The notes under the pieces are model-generated. The model made no database searches. It saw nothing but the letters and a program-made list of their open reading frames with translations, and was not told where the DNA came from. 49,303 nucleotides of DNA, taken from Sulfurimonadaceae bacterium (lineage in GTDB: Bacteria > Campylobacterota > Campylobacteria > Campylobacterales > Sulfurimonadaceae). Positions 5,788 through 48,178 of this stretch are shown piece after piece; the first letter of the stretch is position 1, and the number at the start of each line of letters is the position of its first letter. A program made the position numbers and the translations under genes. The stretch lies in assembly GCA_016744905.1 (NCBI GenBank), contig JADGDM010000009.1, forward strand, positions 1 through 49,303. The letters run 5' to 3'.

Positions 5788-6085
5788 TCTTTTCTCCTAA
5801 TAGATTAAAGATATCGGCATCAAGTGAACGTTTATTTCTAAAGAGCACAACAAAAAGTGCCATAAATAGTGCGGCTTCTGCTGCAGCTATAGCGATAATC
5901 ATTAAAACAATAACTTGACCTTCATTGCTTTGTAAAGTATTTGAGATAGCAACCAAAGAGATATTTACAGCGTTGAGTAGTAACTCAATTGACATATAAA
6001 TAACAATAATATTTTTTCGGCTCAAAACACCAATAATTCCAATACTAAAGAGAATAACGCTCAGTGTTAGGTAGTTACTTAACAT
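5777..6085 (-). CDS. nuoK: NADH-quinone oxidoreductase subunit K
   Basis: A 102-residue protein with three transmembrane helices. Acidic residues buried in helices 2 and 3 (Glu in MSIELLLNAVN and in AIAAAEAALFMALFVVLFR) are the proton-path glutamates of this subunit family. The start chosen is the ATG at 6085, because AAGGAGG lies about 8 nt upstream; an earlier in-frame start at 6115 would add ten charged residues with no family counterpart. It overlaps nuoJ upstream and nuoL downstream by about 11 bp each. Confidence 0.95.
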   Translation of the reverse strand: MLSNYLTLSVILFSIGIIGVLSRKNIIVIYMSIELLLNAVNISLVAISNTLQSNEGQVIVLMIIAIAAAEAALFMALFVVLFRNKRSLDADIFNLLGEKNAS

Positions 6086-7089: not shown

Positions 7090-8351
7090 TAATTGACTCC
7101 TATGATGACGATTGCCGTAATGACAATATTTAAAATTGCAAGTGGAAGTAAAATATTCCATCCCAATTTTTGTGTTTGATCGTATCTAAAACGTGGAAAA
7201 GTCCAACGCACCCAGATATAGATAAAGTGTAGAGTGAATATTTTAGCGGCAAAGATACTAAACTGAATTAACATCACCCCGATATGTTTCTGATCATCAG
7301 AATAGCCTGCGTAGATAGAGTAGGCAATCAATGAAAAAAGTGAGAGTGAAAAAAGAACAATGGTAACCGCATAAATTTTTGTCTCGCGCTTACTTTTTTC
7401 ATTATAAGAATTATTTCGACGCATCCAACGTAAAAACAGAAACATAAAAATGAGTCCAAATCCGATAATCACACCACTTAAAATATCAAAGTGTGTTATT
7501 AAGTCTTGTGTTGTGAGCCAAGGGAGTTGATAACCACCAAAAAAGAGTGTTACCATCAGCGCGCCAGAAGCAGCCATGGCAATATACTCCGCTACAAAAA
7601 AGAGTCCAAATTTCATCGCACCATATTCAGTATGATAACCTGCAACAATCTCACTCTCTCCCTCAGCCGCGTCAAAAGGCGCACGATTGGTTTCTGCAAA
7701 TGAGGTGATGACAAATATCAATGTGGCTAAGGGTTGCATGATGATACCCCACGCCGGTATAAACCCAAAAAATGTCTGAGACTGATAGGTGACAATATCA
7801 TTTAGATGAATGGAGTTATATGTTAGTAGTAGTGAGACAATAGCCAATCCCATAGAAACTTCATAAGAGATAACTTGCGCGCTGGCACGTAGTGAACCTA
7901 GTATGGCGTATTTAGAGTGACTCGCCCAACCACCGATGATAATGCCGTAAACACTTAGACCTGCAAAGGCGATAAACCATAATATACCCAAATCGGTTGG
8001 TAGAGCTTGCATCACATATGAGGTGCCATTTAGCTCAAGATTATCGGCATACGGGATGACCATAAAGGTCAAAAACGAGGCGATGAAAATTAGTGATGGC
8101 GCAACAAGATAATAAAATCTATTTTTAATATGTGAAGGGGCAACTTCTTCTTTAAAAACAAGTTTCATCATGTCCGCAATGGACTGGATGATTCCCGCAA
8201 GACGAATACCTCCAACATGACAGCGATTTGGTCCATACCTATCTTGAATCAGTGCCGCAATTCTTCTTTCCATCCATACCAGCAGAGGTACAGTAGCTAG
8301 GGAGAAGAGTAGGGTGAGGATAAAAGGAGTTAAGATGAGTAACTCATGCAT
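7089..8351 (-). CDS. nuoH: NADH-quinone oxidoreductase subunit H
   Basis: A 420-residue membrane subunit with about eight to nine helices that forms, with NuoB and NuoCD, the quinone chamber. The signature VWMERRIAALIQDRYGPNR (about 25-43) and the acidic loop FVITSFAETNRAPFDAAEGESEIVAGYHTEY (about 214-244) are both present; the latter holds the glutamates at the quinone-cavity/E-channel entrance. The family is usually about 325-350 residues, so this version is somewhat long, with extra residues around 308-345 between late helices. It overlaps the end of nuoG by 8 bp. Confidence 0.96.
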   Translation of the reverse strand: MHELLILTPFILTLLFSLATVPLLVWMERRIAALIQDRYGPNRCHVGGIRLAGIIQSIADMMKLVFKEEVAPSHIKNRFYYLVAPSLIFIASFLTFMVIPYADNLELNGTSYVMQALPTDLGILWFIAFAGLSVYGIIIGGWASHSKYAILGSLRASAQVISYEVSMGLAIVSLLLTYNSIHLNDIVTYQSQTFFGFIPAWGIIMQPLATLIFVITSFAETNRAPFDAAEGESEIVAGYHTEYGAMKFGLFFVAEYIAMAASGALMVTLFFGGYQLPWLTTQDLITHFDILSGVIIGFGLIFMFLFLRWMRRNNSYNEKSKRETKIYAVTIVLFSLSLFSLIAYSIYAGYSDDQKHIGVMLIQFSIFAAKIFTLHFIYIWVRWTFPRFRYDQTQKLGWNILLPLAILNIVITAIVIIGVN

Positions 8352-9822
8352 TGTTGACTCCTTTTAACTTTGTACCCATTTTTTGGATATCAGAAAAGCC
8401 CAATCCAAGCTGTTTTGAGATGTAGCCTGACCAGAGTGTCTCTTGTGTTTTATACAGAGTGTTATCAATCTGTGTAAAGATATGATGCAGAGTGTTTTCA
8501 CTGTGTATATTGTGTAGTGATTTTGAGAATTTTTGAATGATATTATCACTGTTTATAAGTGTTCCATTTTCATGAGAGTATGAGGCAAAACTAACAATAT
8601 TTCGCATGTCTCCCATATCTTCAAAATCATGGGTAGTAAAGTGCATAATCTTTGCATGACTTTCAATATTCTCAAAAAGTAGAGGGTGATTGATATTAAT
8701 AAGCAGTTTAGAAGTTTGAGCCGCTTTTAAAAATGCTTCATAGCTACTTGATATCTCTAAAAACTCTAGCGCGCTGGCATTGGCACTGCGAACACTATTG
8801 CGTAACCAATCATCACCAAACGTTTCATCAACAATAGGTAATGAAAATAGTTCGATACTGTACTTGTCACAAAAAAGTTTTAAGATGCTGAGGTTTTCAA
8901 CACTCAAAGAAGCGTTTGCCAACATCACTTTCTTTGATTCATCTGTACACATGAGCGTACGTAGAGTGCTGGCATTGAAAGGAAAGTGACGTGATTTCTT
9001 ATTTTCTTTATGAAAACTAAGACGTCCTTCATCACACATAAAATAAGAATTTATCGCCATATTTCTTCTTGGACGATACCGATGGATACGGTCATTATCA
9101 AACTTAGTGGTGTTGTGATCAATCGTGATATTACACCCTTTTGAACAGCCATGACAGATACTCTCAACAGAATCTAAAAACCAGACACGTTGTTGAAATC
9201 TAAAATCTTTAGAGGTCAGTGCGCCAACAGGACAGAGATCGATAACATTCATGGCATAAGGGTTATTTAGTGGCTTATTGGGTGCACTAGAAACGCGCGC
9301 TTGATCACCACGTCCGATAATAAAAAGCTCATTGCTTTTTGAGATATTTTGCGTAAAACGGGTACAGCGTGCACAGAGTACACAACGTTCTTGATCCAGC
9401 ATCACGTTTGAGCCTAAGTCAACATGTTTTGCTTTTTTAGTTTTTTCTACACTGTGACGTGAACCATAAAGTCCAAAGTCCATATAGTAGTTTTGTAATG
9501 AACACTCACCTGCTTGATCACACACTGGACAATCTACAGGATGATTAATCAGTTCAAGTTCTAAAATCTCTTGTTTTACCTTGAGGATATTGGGGCTTTT
9601 AGTATGTACTTTAAGACCCTCTTTACATAAGGTATTACAAGCGATTTGAGGACGTTTAGCACCTTCAATCTCAACCATACACATTCGGCAATTGCCATCA
9701 ACTCCTAAGGCTTCATGATAACAAAAATGTGAAATCTCAACATCATTGTCTTGTAAAACTTTAATAAGCAGGGCGTTCTCTTCGACTTCAATTTTTTGAT
9801 TATCTACACTGATATTTACCAT
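8344..9822 (-). CDS. nuoG: NADH-quinone oxidoreductase subunit G, short form
   Basis: A 492-residue iron-sulfur subunit. In order it has a plant-type [2Fe-2S] domain (CYHEALGVDGNCRMC... with a fourth Cys at about residue 62; N1b), the His-Cys3 site HPVDCPVCDQAGEC (N5), a [4Fe-4S] site beginning CVLCARC (N4), and CHGCSKGC plus a distant Cys (residues about 222-263), which resembles the optional N7 site. The molybdopterin-oxidoreductase-like C-terminal half found in E. coli NuoG (about 900 residues) is largely missing. The stop overlaps nuoH by 8 bp, so this looks like a genuine short form and not a frameshift. Start at 9822 follows AGGAGG and overlaps nuoF by one base. Confidence 0.93.
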   Translation of the reverse strand: MVNISVDNQKIEVEENALLIKVLQDNDVEISHFCYHEALGVDGNCRMCMVEIEGAKRPQIACNTLCKEGLKVHTKSPNILKVKQEILELELINHPVDCPVCDQAGECSLQNYYMDFGLYGSRHSVEKTKKAKHVDLGSNVMLDQERCVLCARCTRFTQNISKSNELFIIGRGDQARVSSAPNKPLNNPYAMNVIDLCPVGALTSKDFRFQQRVWFLDSVESICHGCSKGCNITIDHNTTKFDNDRIHRYRPRRNMAINSYFMCDEGRLSFHKENKKSRHFPFNASTLRTLMCTDESKKVMLANASLSVENLSILKLFCDKYSIELFSLPIVDETFGDDWLRNSVRSANASALEFLEISSSYEAFLKAAQTSKLLININHPLLFENIESHAKIMHFTTHDFEDMGDMRNIVSFASYSHENGTLINSDNIIQKFSKSLHNIHSENTLHHIFTQIDNTLYKTQETLWSGYISKQLGLGFSDIQKMGTKLKGVNNA

Positions 9823-11075
9823 TAACACGCCTCCTCTTGGATACACGCAATAAACTCATCTTCAAAGTGGCGTAAAAAGCCATCAATAACATCACTACAC
9901 GCAGGCGCAAATACACAGATGGTCTTTCCATTCATGGTGCGTGAAACCGAGCGTAAAATTTCTAAGTCTTCATAAGTAGCGCGCTTATCGACAAACTTTT
10001 GCATCACTCTATCGGCCCAAGATGTTCCCTCTCGACAAGGTGTACACTGTCCACAAGACTCATGATGATAAAAATGAAGGAGATTTTTAAGGGCTTTTAC
10101 CATGTCGGTATCTTCATCCATAATAATCATTCCTCCTGTTCCAAGTGCAGAGTCAAAAGAACGTAGACTTTCATAATCCATCATCACATCTTTGATCAAG
10201 TGTGCAGGGATTATCGGGGTTGAGGCTCCTCCTGGGATAACAGCTTTGAGCTTTTTACCATTTTTAATGCCTCCACCAGTTTGTTCAATAAAGTCCAACA
10301 TAGAGTGACCAAAACTACACTCATACACACCAGGATTATTAATATGCCCACTCATTGCAAAAAGAAGGGTTCCTGGACTTTTTTCTGTTCCATGTGCCTT
10401 GTATGCATCTGCACCATTTTCTAGAATAAAAGGCACAGATGCAATGGTTTCTACGTTGTTAACAAGAGCCGGTTCTCCAAAATAGAACTCACTCTCTGGC
10501 TGATGAGGTTTTAGACGTGGATGACCACGGTTCCCCTCTAGTGACTCAATCAGTGCTGATTTCTCTCCACAGATATACGCCCCAGCCCCACGATGAACGA
10601 CGACATCGATATTGCCATATTTAGAATTTCCAAGAAATCCTTTTGCGTAGGCTTCATCAACTGCACCTTCTAAAATAGTGATAAATTCTTCATACTCACC
10701 ACGAACGTAGATGTAAGACGATTTTGCACCAATGGCGTGGCAGGTTAATATGATACCTTCTATGAGAAGGTGTGGATCTTTAGCGAGTATTTGACGATCT
10801 TTAAAAGTTCCGGGTTCACTCTCATCTGCATTGACAATAAGATAACGTGTACCAGATTCTGTTGGCTGATTGGCCGCAAGGTTCCATTTGTTACCCGCTG
10901 CTGCGCCACCACCACCTTTCCCACGTAAGTTACTCTCTATTATGATATCTCTGAGTTCTTTTGGTTCTTTCACAAGAGAATCTTCTAGCGCGCTGTATGC
11001 GCCATGCTCAAGTGCCACATCAATAGTATGTGCATTGGGAATATCAAATTTTTTACTGACTATTTTTACTAACAT
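9822..11075 (-). CDS. nuoF: NADH-quinone oxidoreductase subunit F (FMN/4Fe-4S)
   Basis: A 417-residue subunit that in most complexes binds NADH, FMN and the N3 [4Fe-4S] cluster. The cluster site ESCGQCTPCREGT (about 346-358), with a later conserved Cys near residue 400, and the flavin region NADESEPGTFKDR are intact. Unusually, the near-universal GxGGAGFPTGxKW loop reads GKGGGGAAAGNKW (about 52-64). The aromatic residues that stack on the NADH adenine in Thermus Nqo1 (Phe70, Phe78, Phe205) align by eye with Ala, Leu and Gln here. The fold is clear, but NADH as the physiological donor is less certain. It overlaps nuoE by 7 bp. Confidence 0.93.
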   Translation of the reverse strand: MLVKIVSKKFDIPNAHTIDVALEHGAYSALEDSLVKEPKELRDIIIESNLRGKGGGGAAAGNKWNLAANQPTESGTRYLIVNADESEPGTFKDRQILAKDPHLLIEGIILTCHAIGAKSSYIYVRGEYEEFITILEGAVDEAYAKGFLGNSKYGNIDVVVHRGAGAYICGEKSALIESLEGNRGHPRLKPHQPESEFYFGEPALVNNVETIASVPFILENGADAYKAHGTEKSPGTLLFAMSGHINNPGVYECSFGHSMLDFIEQTGGGIKNGKKLKAVIPGGASTPIIPAHLIKDVMMDYESLRSFDSALGTGGMIIMDEDTDMVKALKNLLHFYHHESCGQCTPCREGTSWADRVMQKFVDKRATYEDLEILRSVSRTMNGKTICVFAPACSDVIDGFLRHFEDEFIACIQEEAC

Positions 11076-35406: not shown

Positions 35407-35826
35407 ATGGCAAATCAAGAAGCAATTAAAGGACTAACATTCCTTGATGATGGAGAATGTTTGTATGATGATATTTACTTACTTTCTGAAACAGACGAAA
35501 AGGGTATCGTTACTTATGCAAGCGAATCGTTTTTAAGAGTAGCAGGTTGGAAGTTTGAAGATTTGATTGGACAACCGCATAATGTGGTCCGTCATCCAGA
35601 TATGCCGCGTGCTGCATTTAAGTCTCTTTGGGATGATGCAGAAGGTAAAGGTTTCTGGACTGGTATTGTTAAAAATGCACGTAAGGGTGGCGGATTTTAT
35701 TGGGTCTTTGCAACTGTATTACGCTCAGTTGATAAAAGTGGCGCTATTAAATACGTATCTATTCGTACCAAACCTTCACGTGAAGAGATAAAAGCTGCGC
35801 AAGAACTTTACGCAACATTAGATTAA
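35407..35826 (+). CDS. PAS-domain sensor protein (Aer/CetB-like)
   Basis: A 139-residue single PAS domain. The block QPHNVVRHPDMPRAAFKSLW (about 58-77) is the hallmark of the Aer/CetB group, whose PAS pockets bind FAD to sense redox or energy state, and GFWTGIVKNARKGGGFYWV follows as usual. It lacks membrane segments and a signalling domain, so it must act through a partner; the next gene, 18 bp downstream, encodes the receptor. This mirrors the split CetA/CetB energy-taxis receptor of Campylobacter jejuni, except that this partner is also soluble. AGAGG precedes the ATG. First gene of the operon. Confidence 0.85.
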   Translation: MANQEAIKGLTFLDDGECLYDDIYLLSETDEKGIVTYASESFLRVAGWKFEDLIGQPHNVVRHPDMPRAAFKSLWDDAEGKGFWTGIVKNARKGGGFYWVFATVLRSVDKSGAIKYVSIRTKPSREEIKAAQELYATLD

Positions 35827-35844: not shown

Positions 35845-37731
35845 ATGGCATTAGTTAAAAAAAGTGGAAATAGCGCAGTAGTATCGAACGGAGCTGGTGG
35901 TGGCGATAAGCGTCGTCAACGTACACTAGCAAAACAACAACAAATTTCAGAGAGTATCTCTGGTGTTGCAATAACTATTCTTGATAACGCTCAAGAGAGT
36001 GTAAGTGCAATTGAACAGCTTAAGTCTTCAATGGAACAGATTGCAACAGCAGCTGAAGAGAACAGTGGTGCAAGTGAACAAGCACTTAAAAATGTACGTG
36101 GAATTAATAGTAACATTAGTCGTATGACGACTACTATTAATACAGTAATTACTTCAACTCTGGCTGCTGGTGATAATATCATGAATGCAGTAGGTACAAT
36201 TAATGACTCAGTAGATGGAATGATTGAAGCAGTTGTTGTCGCTGAATCATCATCAAAAAAATCAGAAGAGTTAAAAACATCGTCTGAAAACATTGGTGAA
36301 GCAGTTGGCTTTATTGCAAAAATTGCAGATCAAACAAATCTTTTAGCATTGAATGCAGCCATTGAAGCAAGTCGTGCTAAAGAGCATGGTAAAGGTTTTG
36401 CAGTTGTGGCTGATGAAACTAGAGCTTTAGCTGGTGAGAGTGAAAAAAATGCAGAATTTATATCTGAACTGGTCAATAAAATTCAAGAGAGTATTGATAA
36501 GATTATTAAAAGTATTGTTAATACAACAGGAATTATTGATGCGACTGGTAGTAGTGGTAAAGGGCTTAGCCTTAAAATGGAAGAGCTAACAAAAATTGCT
36601 GTATACACGGTTGAAGCTTCAAGAAGTATCAGCTCATATACTCAAGATTTAGGAACTATTTCTCAGCGTGTTAGTGATGGAAGTCAAGATATCGCTGCTG
36701 CTTCAACAGATATTGCACTCTCTGTTGAGAAGACACTAAATGGCATTGATGTCCAATCGAATGCATTGTCACAAACTGAAGATGATATTAAAGAACTTTC
36801 AAATCTATCTGAAGAGTTAAAATACTCAACAGATACTACAAAATCAGCAGAAGACATTGCCTCTTCAGCTGACGCTATTGGTGGCTCTATGGAAGACATC
36901 CAAAGTGCACTTGAAGAAGTTACAAATGCCTTAAATACTATTGAGTCATCTTCTCACACAACCAATCAAAGTGCTTTAAGTAACCAAGAATTAGTTGAAG
37001 GTGGCTTAGTTAATGCAAAAGATATTGATGCATTGATCGCAATTTCTCGTAAGAACTTTGATCTTCTAAAAACTTCATTTGGTGAAGTTCGAGCTTCGCT
37101 TATTCAAATTAAGGGTGACTTTACAGATTCTATTGCTGAGGGTAATCAAGCCAGTGGTGAGTTAGAGATTATTGTAAAAGAGACAAAAAGTGTTGATAAA
37201 ACTGTTGGTAATATTTCAAATTCAATTATTCAATTAAATATGTTGGCAATTAGTGGTTCTATCGAAGCTGCACGTGCGGGTGATTTTGGTAAAGGCTTTG
37301 CTGTAGTTTCTGCTGATATTAGAAACTTGGCCAAAGATTCTGAGCAAAATACGGATAAAATCAACGACACTATTGAGTCAATGAATGCAGAAATCGTAAC
37401 AGTTAACACAGACTGGTTAGATCTTCTTCATGGTCAAAATAATGGAAGTAAAAATATTGATTCATTGATTAATGATATTAATAAAATTACGGATATGTTG
37501 GTAGACCTTCTTGATAGATTTACAGGATTAAAAGCTATTAATGATCAAAATATTGAAGGCATTAATCAAGTACTTATTGGTATTAGTGAAATTCAAAAAG
37601 CAGTTGAACTCTCCGCTAGAAATGCTATGGAGTCAAGAAAAGCAAGTGAGTTGATTATTGATACTATTTCACATATTAGTGAGGGTGTTGAAGAGTTGGC
37701 TGTTATGGCTGATGAGTTACAACAAGGATAA
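35845..37731 (+). CDS. Soluble chemoreceptor with two signalling domains
   Basis: A 628-residue, almost wholly helical methyl-accepting protein with no transmembrane segment and no ligand domain. It contains two receptor tips: the first is canonical (QTNLLALNAAIEASRAKEHGK, in part residues about 164-184; GFAVVADE follows), the second, 300 residues later, is diverged (LNMLAISGSIEAARAGDFGK, about 463-482; GFAVVSADIRNLA follows). Each has about 130 helical residues on both sides, so two full hairpins exist in tandem. Such double-headed receptors are represented by DosM of Vibrio cholerae, which bridges two CheA/CheW layers in cytoplasmic arrays. The PAS protein upstream probably supplies the sensory input. 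AGAGGAAG precedes the ATG region. Confidence 0.88.
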   Translation: MALVKKSGNSAVVSNGAGGGDKRRQRTLAKQQQISESISGVAITILDNAQESVSAIEQLKSSMEQIATAAEENSGASEQALKNVRGINSNISRMTTTINTVITSTLAAGDNIMNAVGTINDSVDGMIEAVVVAESSSKKSEELKTSSENIGEAVGFIAKIADQTNLLALNAAIEASRAKEHGKGFAVVADETRALAGESEKNAEFISELVNKIQESIDKIIKSIVNTTGIIDATGSSGKGLSLKMEELTKIAVYTVEASRSISSYTQDLGTISQRVSDGSQDIAAASTDIALSVEKTLNGIDVQSNALSQTEDDIKELSNLSEELKYSTDTTKSAEDIASSADAIGGSMEDIQSALEEVTNALNTIESSSHTTNQSALSNQELVEGGLVNAKDIDALIAISRKNFDLLKTSFGEVRASLIQIKGDFTDSIAEGNQASGELEIIVKETKSVDKTVGNISNSIIQLNMLAISGSIEAARAGDFGKGFAVVSADIRNLAKDSEQNTDKINDTIESMNAEIVTVNTDWLDLLHGQNNGSKNIDSLINDINKITDMLVDLLDRFTGLKAINDQNIEGINQVLIGISEIQKAVELSARNAMESRKASELIIDTISHISEGVEELAVMADELQQG

Positions 37732-37734
37732 CAC

Positions 37735-39114
37735 ATGCAGATCGAAGAGGTACTAATCGTAATTAACAATAATGTCAAATATGGCATAGATACATCTGTG
37801 ATCCAGCAGATATTACATGTACCTAATTTGACAGCAATTCCTTATGCTCCAAAATATACTAAAGGGCTATGCTCAATTAGTGGCTCTGTTATCAGTGCTG
37901 TAGATTTTAACCTTTTATTAAATGACAAATGCGTAGATTTGAAATCAGATCGTTCACGTGCTATTGTAATTAATAATGAAGGTACCTTGAGTGCATTGCT
38001 TGTCTCAGAAGTCATTAATTCTATTACATTAGACACTACGCTAATGGATCAAATAGACAGTGGTGACAGTGCTAATAAAGGTACTTATAAACATGCAGAT
38101 GGTCTTATACAGATTTTAGATATATTTGAACTGTTTAATCTAATTGAAGCTGAAAAAATAGATTCAAAAGAGGTTTTAAATGGTGTGAATAGGGATAAGG
38201 TTAGTGAATCAAAAAATATTGATTTACAACGATATCTGGTTTTCTTAATGGGAGAAGAGCAGTTTGCATTAAAAGTGGATTACCTTCAAGAGATTATTGC
38301 TGTTCCTTATATGTTTACATATATTGCAGGTTCACAGAATTATGTCGAAGGTATGATCTCTCTACGTGATGAACTTTTAGTTGTTAATGATGTTCGATGT
38401 TATTATAACTATGCTGTTAGTAAAAGTGACAAAAATAAAATTTTAGTTGCAGAAATTAATAAGAAAAAACTGGGTTTAATTGTTGATGAAATTATAGATA
38501 TAAAAGATTTTGAAAATTCTAGTATTGATGATATGCCAGCTAATTTTCAAGATGAAAAAGTTTCCGGTGTTATACATGATGGTGATCAGCTGATCTCTAT
38601 TCTAGGTGAAAATATCTTAGTGAAAATGATGAAAGAAAATGATAGGTTTGCAGAAGACACACAACGAGAAACAGAGTTAAATGAAGAGAAAGATATAGAA
38701 TTTGAAGTAGTTATTTTTAAGTTACACGATATTGAGTATGCACTAGATATAGATCATGTTGATGAAATCATTGATATGGCACATATTACTGCAGTAGTAG
38801 ATACTCCTGATATAGTAGAAGGTTTAATTAATATTCGCGGTAAAATTGTTACTATGGCTTCCTTATTTAACTCATTAGGGTTAGAGACAAAAATGAATAC
38901 GACTCAGAAAATATTAATTTGTGAAGTTGGTTCGAATAAGATTGGTTTTAATGTTGATCAGATTACCGATGTAATGGGTGTATATCGGAACGATATTAAA
39001 GCTGATAGTGAAGAAGATTCATATTTTTCAAATATATTACACTTAGACAGTGGCAATCGCCTAGTCTTGATGGTTGATATTGAAAAAGTGATGAGAATAG
39101 AGGAAACATTATGA
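37735..39114 (+). CDS. Triple-CheW adaptor
   Basis: A 459-residue protein made of three consecutive CheW-like beta-barrel domains, about residues 1-140, 165-305 and 325-459. The second and third show the standard pattern (YLVFLMGEEQFALKVDYLQEI, then VEGMISLRDELLVVND; VVIFKLHDIEYALDIDHVDEI, then VEGLINIRGKIVTM). The first is more diverged. CheW couples receptors to CheA; a triple version could crosslink several receptor or kinase sites in an array. No kinase or receiver parts are present. AAGGA precedes the ATG; it lies 4 bp after the receptor gene and overlaps cheB as ATGA. Confidence 0.85.
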   Translation: MQIEEVLIVINNNVKYGIDTSVIQQILHVPNLTAIPYAPKYTKGLCSISGSVISAVDFNLLLNDKCVDLKSDRSRAIVINNEGTLSALLVSEVINSITLDTTLMDQIDSGDSANKGTYKHADGLIQILDIFELFNLIEAEKIDSKEVLNGVNRDKVSESKNIDLQRYLVFLMGEEQFALKVDYLQEIIAVPYMFTYIAGSQNYVEGMISLRDELLVVNDVRCYYNYAVSKSDKNKILVAEINKKKLGLIVDEIIDIKDFENSSIDDMPANFQDEKVSGVIHDGDQLISILGENILVKMMKENDRFAEDTQRETELNEEKDIEFEVVIFKLHDIEYALDIDHVDEIIDMAHITAVVDTPDIVEGLINIRGKIVTMASLFNSLGLETKMNTTQKILICEVGSNKIGFNVDQITDVMGVYRNDIKADSEEDSYFSNILHLDSGNRLVLMVDIEKVMRIEETL

Positions 39115-40184
39115 GTAAAAAAGTACTAATAGTTGATGACTCCGCACTGGTAAGAAAACAGTTAAAAGAGTTGATTTCCACACTAGACTTTGAGATTTCA
39201 ATTGCTAAAAATGGTAAAGAAGCTGTGGATATGGCAATAGCAGAACAATTTGATGTTATCACTATGGATGTTAATATGCCTGTAATGGATGGATTGACGG
39301 CAGTTAAAGAGATTATGGAAGCAAGACCAACAGCAATTTTGATGGTGAGTTCACTAACTTCTGCTGATGCAACGACAACGATGGATGCTTTAGACCTTGG
39401 TGCAATTGATTTTATAGCAAAGCCTGGTACGATGAATATTGGTAAAAATGAGAATAGTGAAGAAATTCTACAAAAAGTGACTTCATTAAGTCGTATTCCA
39501 AAAAGAAGATTACAACCTTCTACAAGACGTAGAACACCAGCACCAAGACGTGAACGTCCAGCGCGAACTGAACGAGACAATACACTTACTGTGAAGACGA
39601 GCTCTTTAGATGTTAAAAAAGTTGTACTGATAGGTTCCTCCACTGGTGGGCCAGGTTTGATTGAACAAATTTGTGCGGCACTTCCTGAATCTTATCCTTA
39701 TCCAGTTTGTATAGTTCAGCATATGCCAGCACAGTTTACAGCTGCTTTTGCTACAAGATTAGACAGAGTTAGTGCCTTACAGGTTCAAGAAAGTTCTAAT
39801 AATATGGAACTTTTACCGGGTAATATTTACGTGGCTAAAGGGGGGACACATTTACACTTTGCTAAAAAAGTCTCAGGAAAAATTGTTTTACGAGAAGATA
39901 CAGGAAGAGAGAAACGATTTTTTATGCCAAGTGTCGATGAAATGGTATTCAGCGCACTGGATATTTTTGAACCACGTCAGATTATAGGTGCTATTTTAAC
40001 GGGCATTGGTGATGATGGAGCAGCAGCCTTTGTTAAAGCTAAAAAAGGTGGTGCCTATACTTTAGGTGAAAGTGAAGAGAGTTGTACTGTTTATGGGATG
40101 CCTCGAGTAGCATTTGAAAATGGTGGAATTAGCGAGCAGTTACCATTTAATAAAATTTTAAAAACCCTAGCAACATTAAAATAA
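39111..40184 (+). CDS. cheB: Chemotaxis protein-glutamate methylesterase CheB
   Basis: A 357-residue adaptation enzyme. The receiver (1-120) has the acidic pair 9-10, phospho-acceptor Asp53 and a KPG motif at about 104. An unusually arginine-rich linker (about 124-155) leads to the methylesterase domain, with catalytic Ser in IGSSTGGP (about 173-180), His in VQHMPAQFT (about 202-210) and Asp in LTGIGDDGA (about 298-306). It removes methyl groups from, or deamidates, receptor glutamates when phosphorylated by CheA. It overlaps the triple-CheW gene by 4 bp. Confidence 0.96.
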   Translation: MSKKVLIVDDSALVRKQLKELISTLDFEISIAKNGKEAVDMAIAEQFDVITMDVNMPVMDGLTAVKEIMEARPTAILMVSSLTSADATTTMDALDLGAIDFIAKPGTMNIGKNENSEEILQKVTSLSRIPKRRLQPSTRRRTPAPRRERPARTERDNTLTVKTSSLDVKKVVLIGSSTGGPGLIEQICAALPESYPYPVCIVQHMPAQFTAAFATRLDRVSALQVQESSNNMELLPGNIYVAKGGTHLHFAKKVSGKIVLREDTGREKRFFMPSVDEMVFSALDIFEPRQIIGAILTGIGDDGAAAFVKAKKGGAYTLGESEESCTVYGMPRVAFENGGISEQLPFNKILKTLATLK

Positions 40185-40193
40185 GGATAGACG

Positions 40194-40817
40194 ATGGCAT
40201 TAATTAAAAAGCATGTTGAACAAATTGAAGATGAATTTCCATCATTTTCTAGTTTGGATGAAGCTGTTGAATTTTTTAATAGTAATTGTGATTTTGATTG
40301 TCAATCACATGTTATTGATGAGATGCAATCTTTAGAAGGTTATGCAAAACAGTATGTTGAATTTTTAAAAGATCCCACTACCTCAAAAGAGATCTCTTCA
40401 AGAATGGCATCGACGCTCTCTAGTATGGATCCAAAATTAGCGCCTATTGAAGAGATTATGGAGTTGCTGAAACTCAATAATGCTTATACCCGTAATTTAG
40501 GTATTTCAATGTTACGTGACTTTGGTGACTCAATCAAATATTATATTGTTAAGTTTTTAATTGGAGATGATAGAGATCTCCGAATTTTTGCTATCAATGT
40601 CCTCGGAGATGTGACTTTTGCAGAATCTCGAGATATGCTCTTAGAACTTTTAGAGACGGAAGAAGATATTAATGTTGCTATGACGGCAGTAGATTACCTG
40701 GCAGAAATTGGTGAAATAGAAGATATTAAACTTTTGAAATCTCTTAAAGAACGTTTTGTTGATGATGCTTATGCCGCTTTTTCTATAGACAATTGTATAA
40801 AAATGATTGAAGGATAG
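40194..40817 (+). CDS. HEAT-repeat protein of the chemosensory operon
   Basis: A 207-residue all-helical protein. From about residue 85 onward repeats such as NAYTRNLGISMLRDFGDSIKYYIVKFL and DRDLRIFAINVLGDVTFAESRDMLLELL (blocks about 93-160) fit HEAT repeats, scaffolds for protein-protein contacts. The N-terminal 80 residues are helical without a known domain. It is cytosolic by prediction. HEAT proteins occur in some non-flagellar (ACF-type) chemosensory operons; here it sits between cheB and cheR, so a role in receptor modification or array assembly is possible but unproven. Its stop overlaps the cheR start region (TAGTGATG). Confidence 0.75.
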   Translation: MALIKKHVEQIEDEFPSFSSLDEAVEFFNSNCDFDCQSHVIDEMQSLEGYAKQYVEFLKDPTTSKEISSRMASTLSSMDPKLAPIEEIMELLKLNNAYTRNLGISMLRDFGDSIKYYIVKFLIGDDRDLRIFAINVLGDVTFAESRDMLLELLETEEDINVAMTAVDYLAEIGEIEDIKLLKSLKERFVDDAYAAFSIDNCIKMIEG

Positions 40818-40819
40818 TG

Positions 40820-41650
40820 ATGAGCCGATTACTTTCTAAAGAAAATTTTATTAAAATTGGTGAGTATATTTATCGTAAAAGTGGTATCTATTTAGAAGAA
40901 GAGAAGCACTTTGATAAAATCTCGAAATATATTGATAAACGTGCGCAAGAGATTGAAGTAGACTCTTTTCGTAAGTACTTTTTTAAACTCCGTTTTGAAG
41001 ATAAAGAAGGCAGTGAGTTTCAAGAATTAATGAATGCAATTACGGTTAATGAGACATATTTTTTTAGAGAAAAAAACCAGTTTGAAGTTTTAGTAAATAG
41101 TATATTGCCTGAGCTGCACGCATCTAAACCCGCTGGAGTGCCATTAAGGATTTTATCTTCTCCCTCATCAACAGGAGAAGAACCTTACTCAATTGTACTG
41201 CATATTGTAGAAGAAGGAAAGGTTGTTGAAGAGCGCGATATCGAAGTAGTTGGAATTGATATTGACTCGACAGTGATTAAAAAAGCACAAGCTGGTTTCT
41301 ATAGTGATCGTTCTATTCATGCGATTCCAAAGGATATCTTACACAGATGGTTTGTGAAAAAACCTTTAGGGTATCAACTGGGTGAGGACCTCTTAGGTAG
41401 TGTTGATTTTAGTGTTCGTAATGTATTTGATAAAGCTGATATGCGAAAACTAGGTAAGTTTGATGTTATTTTTTCAAGAAATATGTTGATCTATTTTGAT
41501 GATGCAAGTCGTAAAGAAGTGGCAATGACCTTCTATGACATGTTAAATCCAGGTGGCTATGTTCTTTTAGGACACGCTGAATATATGAGCCGTATTGTTT
41601 CGGTTTTTAAAGCCAAGAAAGTTGGCGACACATTAATTTATCAAAAATAA
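40820..41650 (+). CDS. cheR: Chemotaxis methyltransferase CheR
   Basis: A 276-residue S-adenosylmethionine-dependent enzyme that methylates receptor glutamates. It has the short helical N-terminal domain and the Rossmann domain, with TVNETYFFRE (about 76-85), the SAM-binding LRILSSPSSTGEEPYSI (about 108-124), VVGIDID and FDVIFSRNMLIYFD (about 214-227). The glycine-rich motif usually reads SAxCSTGEEPYS, so SPSSTGEEPYS is a slight variant. The ATG at 40820 is well placed after AAGGA; a GTG immediately before it is possible. No VWF or TPR extension is present. Confidence 0.95.
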   Translation: MSRLLSKENFIKIGEYIYRKSGIYLEEEKHFDKISKYIDKRAQEIEVDSFRKYFFKLRFEDKEGSEFQELMNAITVNETYFFREKNQFEVLVNSILPELHASKPAGVPLRILSSPSSTGEEPYSIVLHIVEEGKVVEERDIEVVGIDIDSTVIKKAQAGFYSDRSIHAIPKDILHRWFVKKPLGYQLGEDLLGSVDFSVRNVFDKADMRKLGKFDVIFSRNMLIYFDDASRKEVAMTFYDMLNPGGYVLLGHAEYMSRIVSVFKAKKVGDTLIYQK

Positions 41651-41659
41651 GGAAAAAAT

Positions 41660-42031
41660 ATGCCATTAGTAATATTCGTAGACGATAGTGAAACAGCATT
41701 AGCATCAACCAGAATGGTTACAAGCAGTATGCCAATCGAGGTTAAGCAGTATACAGAAGCACAAACAGCATTAGCAGAGATTCAAGCGGGAATGACGCCT
41801 GATTTAATCATCACTGATTTAAATATGCCTGTGATGAATGGTTTTGAGTTTTTAGCGGAAATTCGTAAACACCCAACTACTAAGAGAACACCAACATTGA
41901 TGTTGACAACTGAAACAAAAGATGAGATGAAAGCACAAGGTAAAGCTTTGGGGCTAACTGGATGGATTGTTAAACCGTTTAATCCAGCACAGTTAAAACA
42001 AGCAATTACAAGAGTATTGCGTTTAAGTTAA
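41660..42031 (+). CDS. CheY-like response regulator
   Basis: A 123-residue stand-alone receiver with Asp8-Asp9, phospho-acceptor Asp53 (IITDLNMPVMNG), Thr in LMLTTE and Lys in VKPF (about residue 105). All phosphorylation residues are present. It differs from the second receiver downstream, so the operon may run two phospho-branches, for example output and phosphate sink. Its stop overlaps an ATG of the next frame. Confidence 0.92.
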   Translation: MPLVIFVDDSETALASTRMVTSSMPIEVKQYTEAQTALAEIQAGMTPDLIITDLNMPVMNGFEFLAEIRKHPTTKRTPTLMLTTETKDEMKAQGKALGLTGWIVKPFNPAQLKQAITRVLRLS

Positions 42032-42042
42032 TGGAGTTACCT

Positions 42043-42438
42043 ATGAAGTTTCTAAACTCAATTAATGATCTGTTGGATCATATTAAAAATGTTGAAAATG
42101 ATACGATTGAACTTTCACGTGACTCATCTATCAAAATAGCATCTTTTATCGAGCGGAACAAATTAGAAGTAGATGATGATGTGGCGGAAGCCTTACAGTA
42201 TCAAGATATTATCTCTCAACAGTTAAGTGCAACTATTGAAGCGATAGAGAGTGTTCAATCAAGTATTAATCTATTTGAACACTCGTCAAAGAATGATGAA
42301 GTGATAGCCATTGAAAGTATTGGTAAGTTACATAAAAAGTTAAATGATTCATTAGAAAAAGCAAAAGATAGAAGAAAAGCATTTTCAGGTAAGGTATTGG
42401 CTGAAGATGATGTAGAAGATGGAATAGAATTTTTTTAA
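42043..42438 (+). CDS. Minimal CheZ-like phosphatase
   Basis: A 131-residue helical protein that I assign tentatively to the CheZ group. LQYQDIISQQL (about 51-61) matches the CheZ catalytic segment, with Asp55 and Gln59 in the D-x3-Q arrangement that positions water for CheY-P hydrolysis. The acidic, hydrophobic tail (EDDVEDGIEFF) resembles the C-terminal CheY-P docking peptide of CheZ, joined by a charged flexible linker. It is much shorter than E. coli CheZ (214 residues). The start at 42043 follows GGAG; an ATG at 42031 overlaps the previous stop but has no ribosome binding site. It lies between two CheY genes, as expected for their phosphatase. Confidence 0.6.
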   Translation: MKFLNSINDLLDHIKNVENDTIELSRDSSIKIASFIERNKLEVDDDVAEALQYQDIISQQLSATIEAIESVQSSINLFEHSSKNDEVIAIESIGKLHKKLNDSLEKAKDRRKAFSGKVLAEDDVEDGIEFF

Positions 42439-42450
42439 AAGGTTGATGTT

Positions 42451-42816
42451 ATGTCTGTAGTAATGGTAGTAGATGATTCGAAAACAGTAAGATCATATCA
42501 CGGATCGATTTTAGGTCAACTTGGAATTGAAGTTGTAGAAGCTGAAAATGGTATGGAAGCGTTAGAACGCTCTTTAGATAATAAAATTGATCTTTACCTT
42601 GTAGATGTAAATATGCCGATTATGGATGGATACTCATTTGTTCAAGAACTAAGAAAGCAAAGTAATAACACGGATACTCCTGTTATTATGATTACTACAC
42701 AAGCAAAAGATATTGATAAAGAAGAAGCTTATAAAATGGGTGCAAGTTTGTTTGAAACTAAGCCAATTAAACCAGACCAATTAAAAGCATATATACAGTT
42801 ATTGATTAGAGATTAA
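42451..42816 (+). CDS. cheY: CheY-type response regulator
   Basis: A 121-residue single receiver with Asp8-Asp9, phospho-acceptor Asp52 (LVDVNMPIMDG), Thr in IMITTQ and Lys in TKPIKP (about 103). It lies between the CheZ-like gene and cheA and is the likely direct substrate of this CheA. Whether it targets the flagellar motor or another output cannot be told from sequence. Confidence 0.92.
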   Translation: MSVVMVVDDSKTVRSYHGSILGQLGIEVVEAENGMEALERSLDNKIDLYLVDVNMPIMDGYSFVQELRKQSNNTDTPVIMITTQAKDIDKEEAYKMGASLFETKPIKPDQLKAYIQLLIRD

Positions 42817-42827
42817 GGGATTTAAAA

Positions 42828-45620
42828 ATGGATGCATTATTAGAACAATTTTTACAAGAAGCACGAGAAAATCTGGCTTTTATTGATCAAAATATAGAAG
42901 ATATCGGTGGCGATGATCCTGAACTGCTTAATTCAGTTTTTAGAGCAGCGCATACACTTAAAGGTGGATCGGGTATTGTTGGATTTGAATCTGTTAAAAA
43001 TATTACGCATCACGCAGAAGATCTACTTGACATGTTGCGCGCTGGAAAAATAGATTTTGATCCTGCTATGGTTGAAGTTTTATATGATGCATTTGACGAA
43101 GTTTTAAATCTTGTTGAAGCGGCTGAAGAGAGTGAAGAAATTGTTGATGCAGATGAAGATCGTGTAAATGAAATTGTAGGCTTACTCAGTGCCCAAATGG
43201 GTAAAGGTGATGAAGTAGAAGTCTGGAGTGCACCATTTGATACAGGTGTTGATAGTAGCTATGTCATTAATATGCCAATGCCATATTTAAAAACTATGCA
43301 GCAAAATTTGGTCTATCAATTAGGCGAGATAAATCAAGATATTATCTCCGCACCACAACTGTATGCAGTTGTTTTTGATATTGATGAATCTTGTATGGTT
43401 TATGGGAATGATCCTATTTATACACTTTCCCTTTTAGGAGAAAAAGTACTACATATACATACTTGTATGGGAGAAACCTCTGCCAAGTCAGTTTTAAGTG
43501 GTCTTGATGATCCAGATGGTCTTCTGCTTGCTACTGAAATTACAGCATTTATTTATACTACTTATGAAGATATTTCAGATGTATTGTTTAATTTTTTAGA
43601 TGAATTACAGTTTATTCCTCTTGATGTAGAAAAGCTTTTAAACATTACTGTAGGTGAAGAAAATCACCAACTTGATGTGCTAAAAGAGTTGAGTCAAAGT
43701 GCTGCGGCACATTTGAAAAGTACTGATATTGAATCTTTGAGTAATGAATTAGAAAAAACGATAGGTATGATAGGTTCAGATACTATTCAAGCTTCTCAAC
43801 TACAACGTGTTTCTGATGTTATAAATGTAATGGACAGTAGTGATTATACTTTTTTACTAAAGTTATTTAATTCGCTCCCTCAAGGTATTGTGTTTTCTAA
43901 AATGGAAGAGGTAAGTTCGGTAGAAACAGAAGAAGAAACTTCATCTACAGTCATAGAAGTAGATGAACATATTCGTACAAGTATTGATGAAATATTACTT
44001 CAACAAAAAAGATCTTTAGAAATTAATGAGGATGAAAAAAATGTCACCCGAGTTGCTGCTATCTTAGAAAAAATAAGACCTTATTATAACTCTATGCCTA
44101 GTGCTTTGGACTCTAAAGAGAATATTGTTTCTTGGATAGCTTCTGTATTAAACGGGTCTGAAGAACTTAATGAAGTTGTTGAAATACCTAAGGCTGAAGT
44201 AGAAATTGAACCAAAAATTGAAGAAAAAGTTGTTGTGGAAAAAGTGACAGTGGCTCCTAAAATTAAGATAGAAACACCTGTTAAGAAAGTTGAAGTTATT
44301 TCAAAAGCAGCTGAAATACCAGATACTACAGTTGATGAAGTCGTTAAAGTTGAAGTTGTTAAAGATGCAAAAGAAACACCAAAGACAGCATCAAAAGAAC
44401 CTGCGAAAAAGCCAGTGATTGGTAAAACAGTTAAAATTGAACAAGAGTCTATTGATAGTTTGATGAATATTATTGGTGAGTTGCTTGTTGCAAAAAATTC
44501 ACTTCCATATCTTGCCGATACGGTGGCTGATATGAATACAGATATGATTAAACGCGCTATTATGGAAAAATATACTTTCATTAATCGTTTGTCTGAGCAA
44601 CTACAAGATTTGATTATGGGTATGCGTATGTTACCTATCTCTTATGTGTTTGATCGATATCCTAAGTTAGTACGTGATATTTCTAAAAATATGGGAAAAA
44701 AAGTAAAACTTAATATGGAAGGTGGAGAGACAAAGCTTGATAAAAATATGATTGAGATGTTGGCTGACCCGATGATCCATATTATGAGGAATTCACTTGA
44801 TCATGGTGTTGAGATGCCAGATGTAAGAGAACAAAAAGGAAAAAATGCTGAGGGTACTGTAAATTTACGTGCTTTTGCACAGTCTGATAAAATTATTATT
44901 GAAATAATAGATGATGGAGCAGGTATTAATGTTGATAAAGTTATCAATAAAGTTCTTGAAAAAGGATTATTGACACATGAACAAATTGACGCGATGGGTG
45001 ATAATGAACGTGCTGAGTTAGTGCTTCTACCTGGCCTATCTACTGCGGATGAAATTACTGAATATAGTGGTCGTGGAGTAGGTATGGATGTTGTTAAAAA
45101 ATCAATAGAAGGTTTTGGTGGTAAAATAAGTATCACTACCAAGGCGAACCAAGGTACTGTTATTACACTTGCTATCCCTGTTTCTCTTGCTGTTTCAACT
45201 CTCTTACATGTCTCTATGGATGCTATTCACTATGGCTTCCCGATGGACAATGTGGCAGAAACTGTTAAAATTGAAAAAAGTGAAATTGAGTATCTTCATA
45301 GTGAACCTTTTGTCTATATTCGTGGAGAAGTTATCCCATTACTTTTTATTGAGTCTATGCTTGATGCTAGCGCGCTGGAAAATAAGCCACTATCTATAGT
45401 TGTTTTAAATATTAAAGATAACTTGGTTGCAGTTGTCGTAAATGAGTTACTTGGTCAACTTGATGTTGTGCAAAAACCTTTAGAAGGTTTAATGGAAAAT
45501 CATCCTCTATTTAGTGGCACCGCACTACTTGGAAATGGTCAAATTATTATGGCAATTGATCCTCTAGGATTACTCTCCATTGCGCATGAGATTAAATCTT
45601 TAATAGAGCAAGCAAGTTAA
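42828..45620 (+). CDS. cheA: Chemotaxis histidine kinase CheA
   Basis: A 930-residue kinase. Domains in order: Hpt (1-110, phospho-His42 in AAHTLKGGSG); an alpha/beta segment at about 130-270 that may be a P2-like regulator-binding domain; a helical stretch (270-440); an acidic/lysine-rich linker (445-530); dimerisation domain (starting near KIEQESIDSLMNIIGELLVAKN, about 540); ATPase with N box HIMRNSLDHGVE, G1 DDGAGIN and G2 GRGVGMDVVK; and a CheW-like C terminus (about 780-930). All catalytic motifs are intact. E. coli CheA has 654 residues, so the middle is greatly expanded. It is the hub of this operon. Confidence 0.95.
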   Translation: MDALLEQFLQEARENLAFIDQNIEDIGGDDPELLNSVFRAAHTLKGGSGIVGFESVKNITHHAEDLLDMLRAGKIDFDPAMVEVLYDAFDEVLNLVEAAEESEEIVDADEDRVNEIVGLLSAQMGKGDEVEVWSAPFDTGVDSSYVINMPMPYLKTMQQNLVYQLGEINQDIISAPQLYAVVFDIDESCMVYGNDPIYTLSLLGEKVLHIHTCMGETSAKSVLSGLDDPDGLLLATEITAFIYTTYEDISDVLFNFLDELQFIPLDVEKLLNITVGEENHQLDVLKELSQSAAAHLKSTDIESLSNELEKTIGMIGSDTIQASQLQRVSDVINVMDSSDYTFLLKLFNSLPQGIVFSKMEEVSSVETEEETSSTVIEVDEHIRTSIDEILLQQKRSLEINEDEKNVTRVAAILEKIRPYYNSMPSALDSKENIVSWIASVLNGSEELNEVVEIPKAEVEIEPKIEEKVVVEKVTVAPKIKIETPVKKVEVISKAAEIPDTTVDEVVKVEVVKDAKETPKTASKEPAKKPVIGKTVKIEQESIDSLMNIIGELLVAKNSLPYLADTVADMNTDMIKRAIMEKYTFINRLSEQLQDLIMGMRMLPISYVFDRYPKLVRDISKNMGKKVKLNMEGGETKLDKNMIEMLADPMIHIMRNSLDHGVEMPDVREQKGKNAEGTVNLRAFAQSDKIIIEIIDDGAGINVDKVINKVLEKGLLTHEQIDAMGDNERAELVLLPGLSTADEITEYSGRGVGMDVVKKSIEGFGGKISITTKANQGTVITLAIPVSLAVSTLLHVSMDAIHYGFPMDNVAETVKIEKSEIEYLHSEPFVYIRGEVIPLLFIESMLDASALENKPLSIVVLNIKDNLVAVVVNELLGQLDVVQKPLEGLMENHPLFSGTALLGNGQIIMAIDPLGLLSIAHEIKSLIEQAS

Positions 45621-45630
45621 GGATTAGTAG

Positions 45631-46407
45631 ATGACAAGTTATATTTTATTTAGAGTGAATAACCTTAAGTATGCTTTTCCATTAGAAAATATACATCGTA
45701 TAGATATGGCAAAAGATGTGACAAAGAGTAACTCTGGAGAAAAGACATCTGAGGGGATTATGAGTTTTGAAGATGATGTTATTGAAATTTTTAGTTTTCG
45801 CGCAATGATTGGTGCGCAAGTGTATAGTGATTATCTTAAAGCATTATTTGAAGATTTAAAAGGACAACATAAGGCTTGGGTGGATGCCTTGATTTATGCG
45901 GTTGAAAATAGTAGTGAATTTACCAAAACAACCAATCCTCACATGTGTCACTTAGGAAAATGGATAGACTCTTTTAATCCTTATAGTGATGAGATATTAA
46001 ATATATTAAATCAATTAAGCACACACCATAAAAAGTTACATTCAAGTGCTATTGATGTTCTTGAAAAACGTGAAAAGAGTTTAGAAGAAGCATTAGATTG
46101 GATTCATACCCACGTAAAAGATATATATACTCAGACAATTTGGCATATAGAAGAGATGGCAGCAAAATCGGATGTTATTGCTCATGAGTCTCAAAAGCTT
46201 ATGATTGTCCTAGATGGCGATAATAAGTTTGGTATCCATGTTGATTCTATTGATGATATAGTACATATTGAAGATCAAGAAATTAATAGTAATGAAAATT
46301 TGGTTAGAGATGGTGAATACTTACGTGTTGGAGGTGTTTTAAAACATAAAGATGAGTTGAGTTCGCTCATTACTAAAATCAAATGCCATTCAAGCCTGAA
46401 AGAGTAA
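45631..46407 (+). CDS. CheW adaptor split by a CZB zinc domain, copy 1
   Basis: A 258-residue protein. Residues 1-62 (YILFRVNNLKYAFPLENIHRI, EGIMSFEDDVIEIFSFR) are the first half of a CheW barrel, and about 188-255 (KLMIVLDGDNKFGIHVDSID) the second half. Between them lies a chemoreceptor zinc-binding (CZB) domain that fits the family pattern exactly: His80-x2-Trp83, Cys106-x-Leu-Gly-x-Trp111, His133-x3-His137. CZB domains sense zinc and, through the zinc-thiolate, hypochlorous acid. Zinc state could thus change adaptor geometry and CheA activity. The gene starts 10 bp after cheA and is a tandem paralogue of the next one. Confidence 0.85.
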   Translation: MTSYILFRVNNLKYAFPLENIHRIDMAKDVTKSNSGEKTSEGIMSFEDDVIEIFSFRAMIGAQVYSDYLKALFEDLKGQHKAWVDALIYAVENSSEFTKTTNPHMCHLGKWIDSFNPYSDEILNILNQLSTHHKKLHSSAIDVLEKREKSLEEALDWIHTHVKDIYTQTIWHIEEMAAKSDVIAHESQKLMIVLDGDNKFGIHVDSIDDIVHIEDQEINSNENLVRDGEYLRVGGVLKHKDELSSLITKIKCHSSLKE

Positions 46408-47175
46408 ATGATGATAGATTTAATTATATTTAAAGTTAAAGACTCTACCTATGCCGTTGATATAGAAAATATTCAGCGTATAGTACAGTCTGGAGAGTTG
46501 ACGCATATTCCTAATGCACATCCCTTTGTTGATGGAATGATGTCATTTGAAGATAAGGTAATAAAAATTATTAACTTTCGTAAGATGTTGAGTTTTGAAA
46601 GTTATAATGTTGAACTCAATGCAAAGTTTAAAGAGTTAGAAGAGCAGCATACTGTCTGGATAGAGGCACTAAAAAAGAGTGCAGAAAACTCTATGACTTT
46701 TAATAAAACTTTAGATCCTCATGCCTGTGAATTAGGTGTGTGGTTAGATGCCTTTACATCATATGATGATGAAGTAAGCAAGGTACTAAAAGAGCTGAAC
46801 TCTTATCATAAACGTTTGCATAAAAGTGGGCATGAAGTATTGGATCTAGCCAAAACCGATAATAGTTTAGCCCTCGCTTTTTTCAATAAAGATGTGATGG
46901 AAATCTATGTAAATACTATGCGTTGTTTAGATACGTTTATTAACAATTTAGAAAAGGTGTCATCTTCTTTACAAAAATTACTTCTTTATCACACAGATGA
47001 GGGAGACTTCGCTATAAAGGTTGATACTATTTTAGATATTGCCCATGTTGAAGAGAGTGAGCTTAAAAGATCTACAGATAAAAGTCAAAGTAGTGAGTTC
47101 TTAGAACTTGATGGTGTTTTAGAATTGAATGGAACACTAATAAATGTTATAAAATCAATTAAAATGCCCAACTAG
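46408..47175 (+). CDS. CheW adaptor split by a CZB zinc domain, copy 2
   Basis: A 255-residue tandem paralogue of the preceding gene with the same nested plan: CheW first half (1-62), CZB (about 75-170) and CheW second half (about 185-253). Zinc ligands are His81 (with Trp84), Cys107 in CELGVW, and His134 and His138. The two copies have diverged widely outside these motifs, so they probably have distinct partners or zinc affinities. The ATG directly follows the previous stop codon; the second codon is also ATG. No Shine-Dalgarno of its own is obvious, consistent with translational coupling. Confidence 0.85.
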   Translation: MMIDLIIFKVKDSTYAVDIENIQRIVQSGELTHIPNAHPFVDGMMSFEDKVIKIINFRKMLSFESYNVELNAKFKELEEQHTVWIEALKKSAENSMTFNKTLDPHACELGVWLDAFTSYDDEVSKVLKELNSYHKRLHKSGHEVLDLAKTDNSLALAFFNKDVMEIYVNTMRCLDTFINNLEKVSSSLQKLLLYHTDEGDFAIKVDTILDIAHVEESELKRSTDKSQSSEFLELDGVLELNGTLINVIKSIKMPN

Positions 47176-47184
47176 GAGTAGTAT

Positions 47185-47454
47185 ATGTCAATGAAAATAG
47201 AAGAGTCAAAAGTTACTTTTGATTCAGTAATATATGAAGATGAAATAGAACCTTTGAGAGAATATCTGCAGACTCGTGCGCCAGAGAGTGTTGATTTTGA
47301 TTTTTCAGCCTGTGATGATCTTCATTTAGCTGTCATGCAATTAATAATGGCGTATAAAAAACTTTATACTTGTAGTTATGAGTTTGGTGATAAAGATAAG
47401 TTATATAAAATGACATTGGAAGGTTTCAATATTAGTGAAAACTGTTGTAGTTAG
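47185..47454 (+). CDS. Small STAS-like protein
   Basis: An 89-residue protein with no membrane segment. DFDFSACDDLHLAVMQLIMAYKKL (blocks about 37-60) looks like the beta-alpha signature of STAS domains (DLS...sSaGlqlLlalk), with Asp in place of the usual phospho-acceptor Ser/Thr region, followed by a final beta-alpha pair. STAS proteins bind nucleotides or act as phospho-switched partners. AGGAG precedes the ATG. It ends 20 bp inside the ParA-like gene. The family call is tentative. Confidence 0.5.
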   Translation: MSMKIEESKVTFDSVIYEDEIEPLREYLQTRAPESVDFDFSACDDLHLAVMQLIMAYKKLYTCSYEFGDKDKLYKMTLEGFNISENCCS

Positions 47455-48178
47455 TAATAGAAAAGGTGGGTCGGCTAAGACGACTACCGCTGTAAATTTA
47501 GCAACTGAATTGGCAAAAAAACACTCTGTTTTATTGATTGATTTTGATACACAAGGTCATGCTTCTATTGGAGTAGGGTGTGAGCCTTCTGAATTAAGAG
47601 GTGCTCATTCAATATTTTTAGGGCAAAATTTAAGTGAAAGTTTCATCCCTACGGTACATAAAAACTTAACACTTGCTCCTGCTTTGGAATTTTTTGATGT
47701 TTATGAGTATGCTGATCTTCGAGGGGTACTAAAAAATCGTTTTAAACGTGAACATATTGCAGATTTCTTTGATTATTGTATTATTGATACTCCTCCTACT
47801 TTTGATGCAATGTTGAAAAACTCTTTAGAGGTTGCTGATGCGGTTGTTATCCCATTTGTGCCACACCATCTGGGGGTAGTGGCAGTCAATCAGATGTTTA
47901 GAGCAATATTGCAAAGCGCTAACTCTTTCAATCAAAAGATTGCAGAAATCGGGATTTTACCAGTCATGTTTAATCCTCATATTAATGAACACAAAGAATC
48001 TTTAAAAAAGGTGGAAACACTTTTTGGTTCTTCTAAACTTTTTACACCTATTGGGGTAGATATTAAACTATCTAAGATGTTTGAATTCGGTTCGCCTATT
48101 GTTCTAAATGAGAAACGCTCAAAAGGAATGAAAGACTATAAACTATTTACTACTGAGCTATTAAAGCGCCTCTCATGA
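47435..48178 (+). CDS. ParA/MinD-type ATPase of the chemosensory operon
   Basis: A 247-residue deviant-Walker ATPase. KGGSAKTTTAVNLA (about 11-24) has the signature first lysine, DFDTQGHAS (about 37-45) is the Walker A-prime region and IIDTPPTF (about 117-124) the Walker B. ParA relatives encoded in chemotaxis operons (ParC of Vibrio, PpfA of Rhodobacter) position polar or cytoplasmic chemoreceptor arrays, so array segregation is the likely role. The start is GTG at 47435, 20 bp inside the preceding gene, with GGAAGG upstream. No parB or parS lies nearby, which argues against plasmid or chromosome partition. Confidence 0.88.
   Translation: MKTVVVSNRKGGSAKTTTAVNLATELAKKHSVLLIDFDTQGHASIGVGCEPSELRGAHSIFLGQNLSESFIPTVHKNLTLAPALEFFDVYEYADLRGVLKNRFKREHIADFFDYCIIDTPPTFDAMLKNSLEVADAVVIPFVPHHLGVVAVNQMFRAILQSANSFNQKIAEIGILPVMFNPHINEHKESLKKVETLFGSSKLFTPIGVDIKLSKMFEFGSPIVLNEKRSKGMKDYKLFTTELLKRLS

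Follow-up and report, generated by a model that had tools for sequence, protein, structure and literature searches.

The open reading frame at 35845-37731 on the + strand of the window, that is, of the whole 49,303-nucleotide stretch analysed here, encodes DosM, the receptor that characterises chemosensory class F9. The two signalling heads of this protein are unlike each other, and the same difference is seen in each of the 97 family members under comparison, so that the heads probably do different jobs and may be regarded as two specialised heads. The protein is likely to act as an F9 rod that joins two CheA/CheW3 layers, with head 1 as an ordinary head and head 2 as a specialised anchor. 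DosM is already known as a kind of protein, to which the window adds a member; the second type of head, with its few fixed residues and a swappable charge pair, would offer a handle on how two-layer arrays are built and on whether their layers are equivalent.

DosM and the F9 operon

The gene starts with ATG at the position originally proposed, and its 628-aa product is matched twice by PF00015 (E 9.6e-31 and 7.2e-21 in a Pfam search of its own genome), with no other domain above the Pfam cut-off. The maximum 19-residue Kyte-Doolittle mean is 1.1, in agreement with the original prediction that a membrane segment is lacking; the accompanying statement that there is no ligand-binding domain holds in Pfam for the DosM chain itself, but a separate, stand-alone PAS protein, a candidate trans-acting sensor, is encoded only 19 bp upstream (35407-35826, + strand; PF08447, E 7.7e-11), and the same gene precedes dosM in 10 of 10 Campylobacterota F9 loci. 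The identification as DosM is based on the two PF00015 matches, the orthologues, and the operon context, and the assignment to class F9 follows from the published signature of this class, a triple CheW next to a soluble receptor that has two signalling domains: here, two tandem MCP signalling domains are found in one soluble chain devoid of a sensor domain, the adjacent gene encodes an adaptor with three CheW domains, and a full set with its own CheA, CheB, CheR, and CheY is arranged in the conserved order.

This operon, headed by dosM, reads DosM-CheW3-CheB-HEAT-CheR-CheY-CheA, with all its genes on the + strand. The F9 adaptor gene cheW3, with three concatenated CheW domains (37735-39114; PF01584 in three stretches, E 1.4e-67), is followed by cheB (39111-40184; PF01339 and PF00072), a gene for a HEAT-repeat protein that occupies the same slot in many F9 operons (40194-40817; PF13646, E 1.3e-10), cheR (40817-41650; PF01739, E 1.5e-48), two genes for CheY-like response regulators (41660-42031 and 42451-42816; PF00072, E 4.7e-23 and 1.3e-27), and cheA (42828-45620), whose 930-aa product carries Hpt, dimerisation, ATPase, and CheW-like P5 domains in Pfam. 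The glycine of the NLRG motif has been lost family-wide from domain 2 of CheW3, whereas domains 1 and 3 retain it. The two response regulators flank a gene for a 135-aa protein to which Pfam gives no credible match (42031-42438); this protein contains the stretch LQYQDIISQQ, which we take to recall the CheZ phosphatase motif, and is present in 10 of 10 Campylobacterota F9 loci and absent from the other F9 loci examined.

Downstream of cheA, two CheW-CZB proteins (45631-46407 and 46408-47175, + strand; PF01584 and PF13682) are encoded, in which a zinc-binding CZB domain interrupts the CheW fold between its two halves (for the second protein, CheW at 5-67 and CZB at 81-145). Their genes were found in all nine Campylobacterota F9 loci whose contig extends far enough and in none of roughly 60 other F9 loci; judged by this distribution, the pair is a lineage-specific addition outside the F9 core. 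A ParA-family ATPase, a candidate partitioning factor for a cytoplasmic array, is encoded at the operon end (47435-48178, + strand; PF13614, E 2.7e-29). Elsewhere in the genome, CheW and CheA matches are found mainly in three separate clusters (contigs C13, C35, and C76), and the organism therefore probably has three chemosensory systems.

Two halves of equal length and two unlike tips

The claim that two tips lie 300 residues apart, one canonical and one diverged, proved right, including the tip sequences originally quoted: QTNLLALNAAIEASR starts at residue 163 (tip 1) and LNMLAISGSIEAAR at residue 464 (tip 2), and the equivalents of Tsr A382 are residues 171 and 471, exactly 300 apart. The hairpin of head 1, equivalent to Tsr 352-421 and with the canonical tip QTNLLALNAAIEASRAKEHGKGFAVVADETR, is encoded at 36265-36474 (+ strand), and that of head 2, with the diverged tip QLNMLAISGSIEAARAGDFGKGFAVVSADIR, recognised by sequence comparison, AF2, and superposition, at 37165-37374 (+ strand). 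The spacing is 300 aa in 96 of the 97 homologues and 299 in the remaining one, and tip 2 is near-invariant across 17 orthologues, which together place the two-tip layout far from chance.

Profiles of the two halves, built from 87 sequences, align with each other without a gap over 298 columns (E 8.8e-50), so that DosM, by profile-profile alignment, is one MCP signalling domain duplicated in tandem over its whole length, with halves of equal heptad length. The suggestion that the two heads might fall into different heptad classes is not borne out, since a gapless alignment means one length class by the standard of the original prediction itself. When the other MCPs of the genome were aligned as single sequences to assign heptad classes, the gaps were multiples of seven but shifted in place, and no clean class resulted. 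An AF2 model of the monomer, built on a 40-row alignment (pLDDT 89.5, compared with 45 for the single sequence), is made up of long helices that turn at tip 1 and are broken at residues 328-330. In this model, half 2 superposes without gaps on the signalling domains of Tm1143 (2ch7; 304 residues, 2.8 Å) and Bacillus subtilis McpB (9a65; 306 residues, 2.4 Å), and it is on account of these superpositions that half 2 is also predicted to form a hairpin. Tm1143 and McpB, presumably 44H receptors, have a hairpin as long as each DosM half and a single canonical tip, and McpB, unlike DosM, is a membrane receptor.

Across the 87 sequences, tip 1 retains the canonical residues, whereas tip 2 has M377, G382, D402, and K363 (Tsr numbering) in all 87, together with V/I380, mostly S383, F/Y392, and I403. 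K363 is paired with D/E415 in 86 of the 87 tip 2 sequences, so that the usual sign pattern is reversed; this +/- arrangement of the 363/415 pair was found in none of the 87 tip 1 sequences and in none of 40 other MCPs. The originally noted difference between the tips is thus real, consists of substitutions fixed in tip 2, and is located at positions of contact with the trimer and with the adaptor. Positions 377, 380, and 402, we assume, also contact CheW or CheA P5. Tsr D363/R415 and E402/R404 are reported to be salt bridges that stabilise the trimer (PMC6746300), and the substitution I377P stops trimer formation (PMC4692393).

All 44 tip 2 sequences sampled fall in one clade (support 0.997), and the divergence is therefore no oddity of the genome under study; as far as this phylogeny can be followed, tip 2 represents a second kind of head, monophyletic and found throughout the family, whose divergence arose once, before the present DosM families split, and was then kept. 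The accessible text of the DosM reviews makes no mention of a family-wide inequality of the heads.

A proposed rod between two layers, or a folded chain

The protein in the window shares with DosM of Vibrio cholerae (VC1403), as published, its solubility, two tandem signalling domains, and the lack of a sensor domain, as well as the coding context with a triple CheW, CheA, CheB, and CheR and the proposed function of a bridge between two baseplates. In V. cholerae, DosM belongs to cluster I with CheW3 (VC1402) and CheA (VC1397), according to the accessible parts of two papers (PMC7534058, PMC9321776). The first of these describes DosM, from subtomogram averages, as a rod that extends from one CheA/CheW3 baseplate to a second, with a domain at either end, and a membrane-free two-layer array stabilised by DosM together with other cytoplasmic receptors (PMC7534058, as accessible); the accessible part of the second also presents DosM as an inter-baseplate rod (PMC9321776). 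By analogy, the window DosM would bridge two layers built from its own CheA and CheW3. Head 1, whose contact residues are ordinary, could enter trimers of dimers together with ordinary receptors. Head 2 may be a specialised anchor, which either packs for the most part against other head 2s or docks on CheW3/CheA in a different manner, its contact chemistry being provided by M377, V/I380, G382, F/Y392, D402, I403, and K363 with D/E415. Since the DosM chain has no sensor domain, its input would probably be supplied by other receptors or by the PAS protein encoded upstream. A more specific version, to be taken as tentative and rather doubtful, is that F9 arrays are polar, with one ordinary and one dedicated head per DosM, head 2 trimers held by a contact of reversed charge from which ordinary receptors are excluded, and functionally different baseplates, one mixed and sensing and the other made of DosM heads only.

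Some observations count against a rod. A straight helix of 300 residues would measure about 44 nm from tip to tip (1.48 Å per residue), longer than the 35 nm measured between V. cholerae baseplates (PMC3964821), though this length alone is not decisive. The junction ELKYSTDTTKSAE (residues 324-336; 36814-36852, + strand), which separates the two signalling domains, is near-invariant, with the consensus ELKxSTDxxKSAEE and with L325, S328, T329, D330, K333, S334, and E336 each conserved in 85-94 of 96 sequences, and the AF2 helix break at 328-330 falls inside it. The AF2 monomer, a lone chain with no partner, appears folded back, with compact matches spanning both halves. The break in the conserved junction and the compact matches would also be expected if the signalling domains of one chain pair, so that tips 1 and 2 lie together at the same end, as in a heterodimer built into the chain, in which case the difference between the tips would separate an inside subunit, in contact with the trimer, from an outside subunit, in contact with CheW and P5. 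The identical lengths of the halves would hold the tips in register, and natural soluble tandem MCPs were read as single-chain receptors in an earlier paper (PMC4692393). Such a fold-back is nonetheless unlikely: the subtomogram averages of V. cholerae were read as a rod with one domain per end in the accessible text of PMC7534058, an AF2 run on a monomer itself favours folding back, and the reciprocal 363/415 charge reversal inside head 2 suggests a contact of head 2 with head 2. A coevolution test of the register expected from the rod and from the fold-back (94 sequences, Neff 41) lacked power: the signal mostly reflected heptad phase, and the positive control failed.

The original prediction had also proposed that each head may have an adaptor set of its own, for example CheW3 for one and CheW-CZB for the other, so that unlike baseplates are bridged. 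The heads do differ at contact positions, and head 2 of the Campylobacterota, which carry CheW-CZB in the operon, shows the additional changes T375L, V380I, and N381S. However, head 1 of the same lineage has changed too (A387S, G390K, and V403T), and these changes thus give no head-specific link to CheW-CZB. Synteny leads to the rejection of CheW-CZB as the explanation of tip 2, and this adaptor split is very unlikely: head 2 is diverged in every DosM examined, including those in the non-Campylobacterota loci, from which CheW-CZB genes are absent. What stands of the proposal is the bridging, which matches the published V. cholerae DosM; the unlike baseplates do not, as both layers there are described, in the accessible part of PMC7534058, as composed of the same CheA (VC1397) and triple CheW (VC1402). 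Finally, that head 2 is a decaying duplicate with a purely structural coiled coil, as its departure from the receptor consensus at otherwise invariant positions could imply, is scarcely credible and was rejected on conservation, because its core is nearly as conserved as that of head 1 (mean entropy of about 0.34-0.62 bits in core windows), it is monophyletic and present in all 97 sequences, and its fixed new residues are unlike decay.

A basic N-terminus and ParA

At the N-terminus, nearly all DosMs have a basic motif with the consensus [RK][RK][RK]ARTLA[KR]QQQxAE, and 92 of 96 sequences keep the R that precedes T; in the window protein, it reads KRRQRTLAKQQQISES (residues 22-37; 35908-35955, + strand). 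The motif could contact ParA or the nucleoid, and a ParA gene is found near 28 of 69 F9 loci examined. Rhodobacter sphaeroides TlpT, a soluble receptor of a cytoplasmic cluster, like DosM but with one tip only, works with the ParA homologue PpfA (PMC6829392), and ppfA is common in che operons (PMC2829493); Myxococcus FrzCD, likewise a soluble receptor of a cytoplasmic cluster with one signalling tip only, binds DNA via a basic N-terminal tail (PMC5716589) and is like DosM in having a basic N-terminus. The conserved N-terminus, the nearby ParA genes, and these precedents make a role in partitioning plausible.

Distribution and related systems

Orthologues about 65-78% identical to the window protein were found in 16 of 60 related genomes. 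In a scan of genome contigs, all the loci that could be read through were DosM; among the best 80 loci listed, the closest relatives with a name are MAGs of Sulfurimonas and Sulfuricurvum, and the gammaproteobacterial DosMs of Alteromonas, Rheinheimera, and Chromatium are homologous to that of the window. The F9 gene order is identical on plasmids of Sphaerotilus, Methylosinus, Eleftheria, Azospirillum, and Methylobacterium, and recurs, among the loci listed, in Proteobacteria, Actinobacteria, Firmicutes, Acidobacteria, and other phyla. In wider class scans, DosM was present in 9 of 369 and 5 of 385 genomes, in agreement with the published value of about 2%.

In the Sulfurimonas family, complete F9 systems are frequent: 13 of the 37 genomes searched, the genome under study among them, have one, whereas the published survey of Campylobacterota, as far as its text is accessible, has only partial sets. 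The Nitratiruptor and Nautilia sets reported there (Mo et al. 2022, PMC9321776) share with the present one a campylobacterotal DosM with CheW3 and CheB/R, but are described in that text as clusters without cheA and cheY, in contrast with the complete cluster found here and in related Sulfurimonas MAGs, which extends the accessible account of these authors to the full F9 set in Sulfurimonas-type genomes. Compared with that published for V. cholerae, the operon of this lineage has in addition the PAS protein, the CheZ-like protein, and the CheW-CZB proteins. Tip 2 of this lineage carries extra changes (QLN, AISGS).

Two further loci deviate from the common pattern. A Burkholderiales genome (PBB6, locus L058) has two back-to-back F9 operons on opposite strands, each led by dosM (5253-7250 and 8867-10897). 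In one further related genome, from another family of the order, a DosM-like protein 28% identical to that of the window is encoded (locus L018, 1501-3258), in which both heads look altered: tip 1 is shortened by four residues (DQTN), and tip 2 reads SISINGALEAIRLG.
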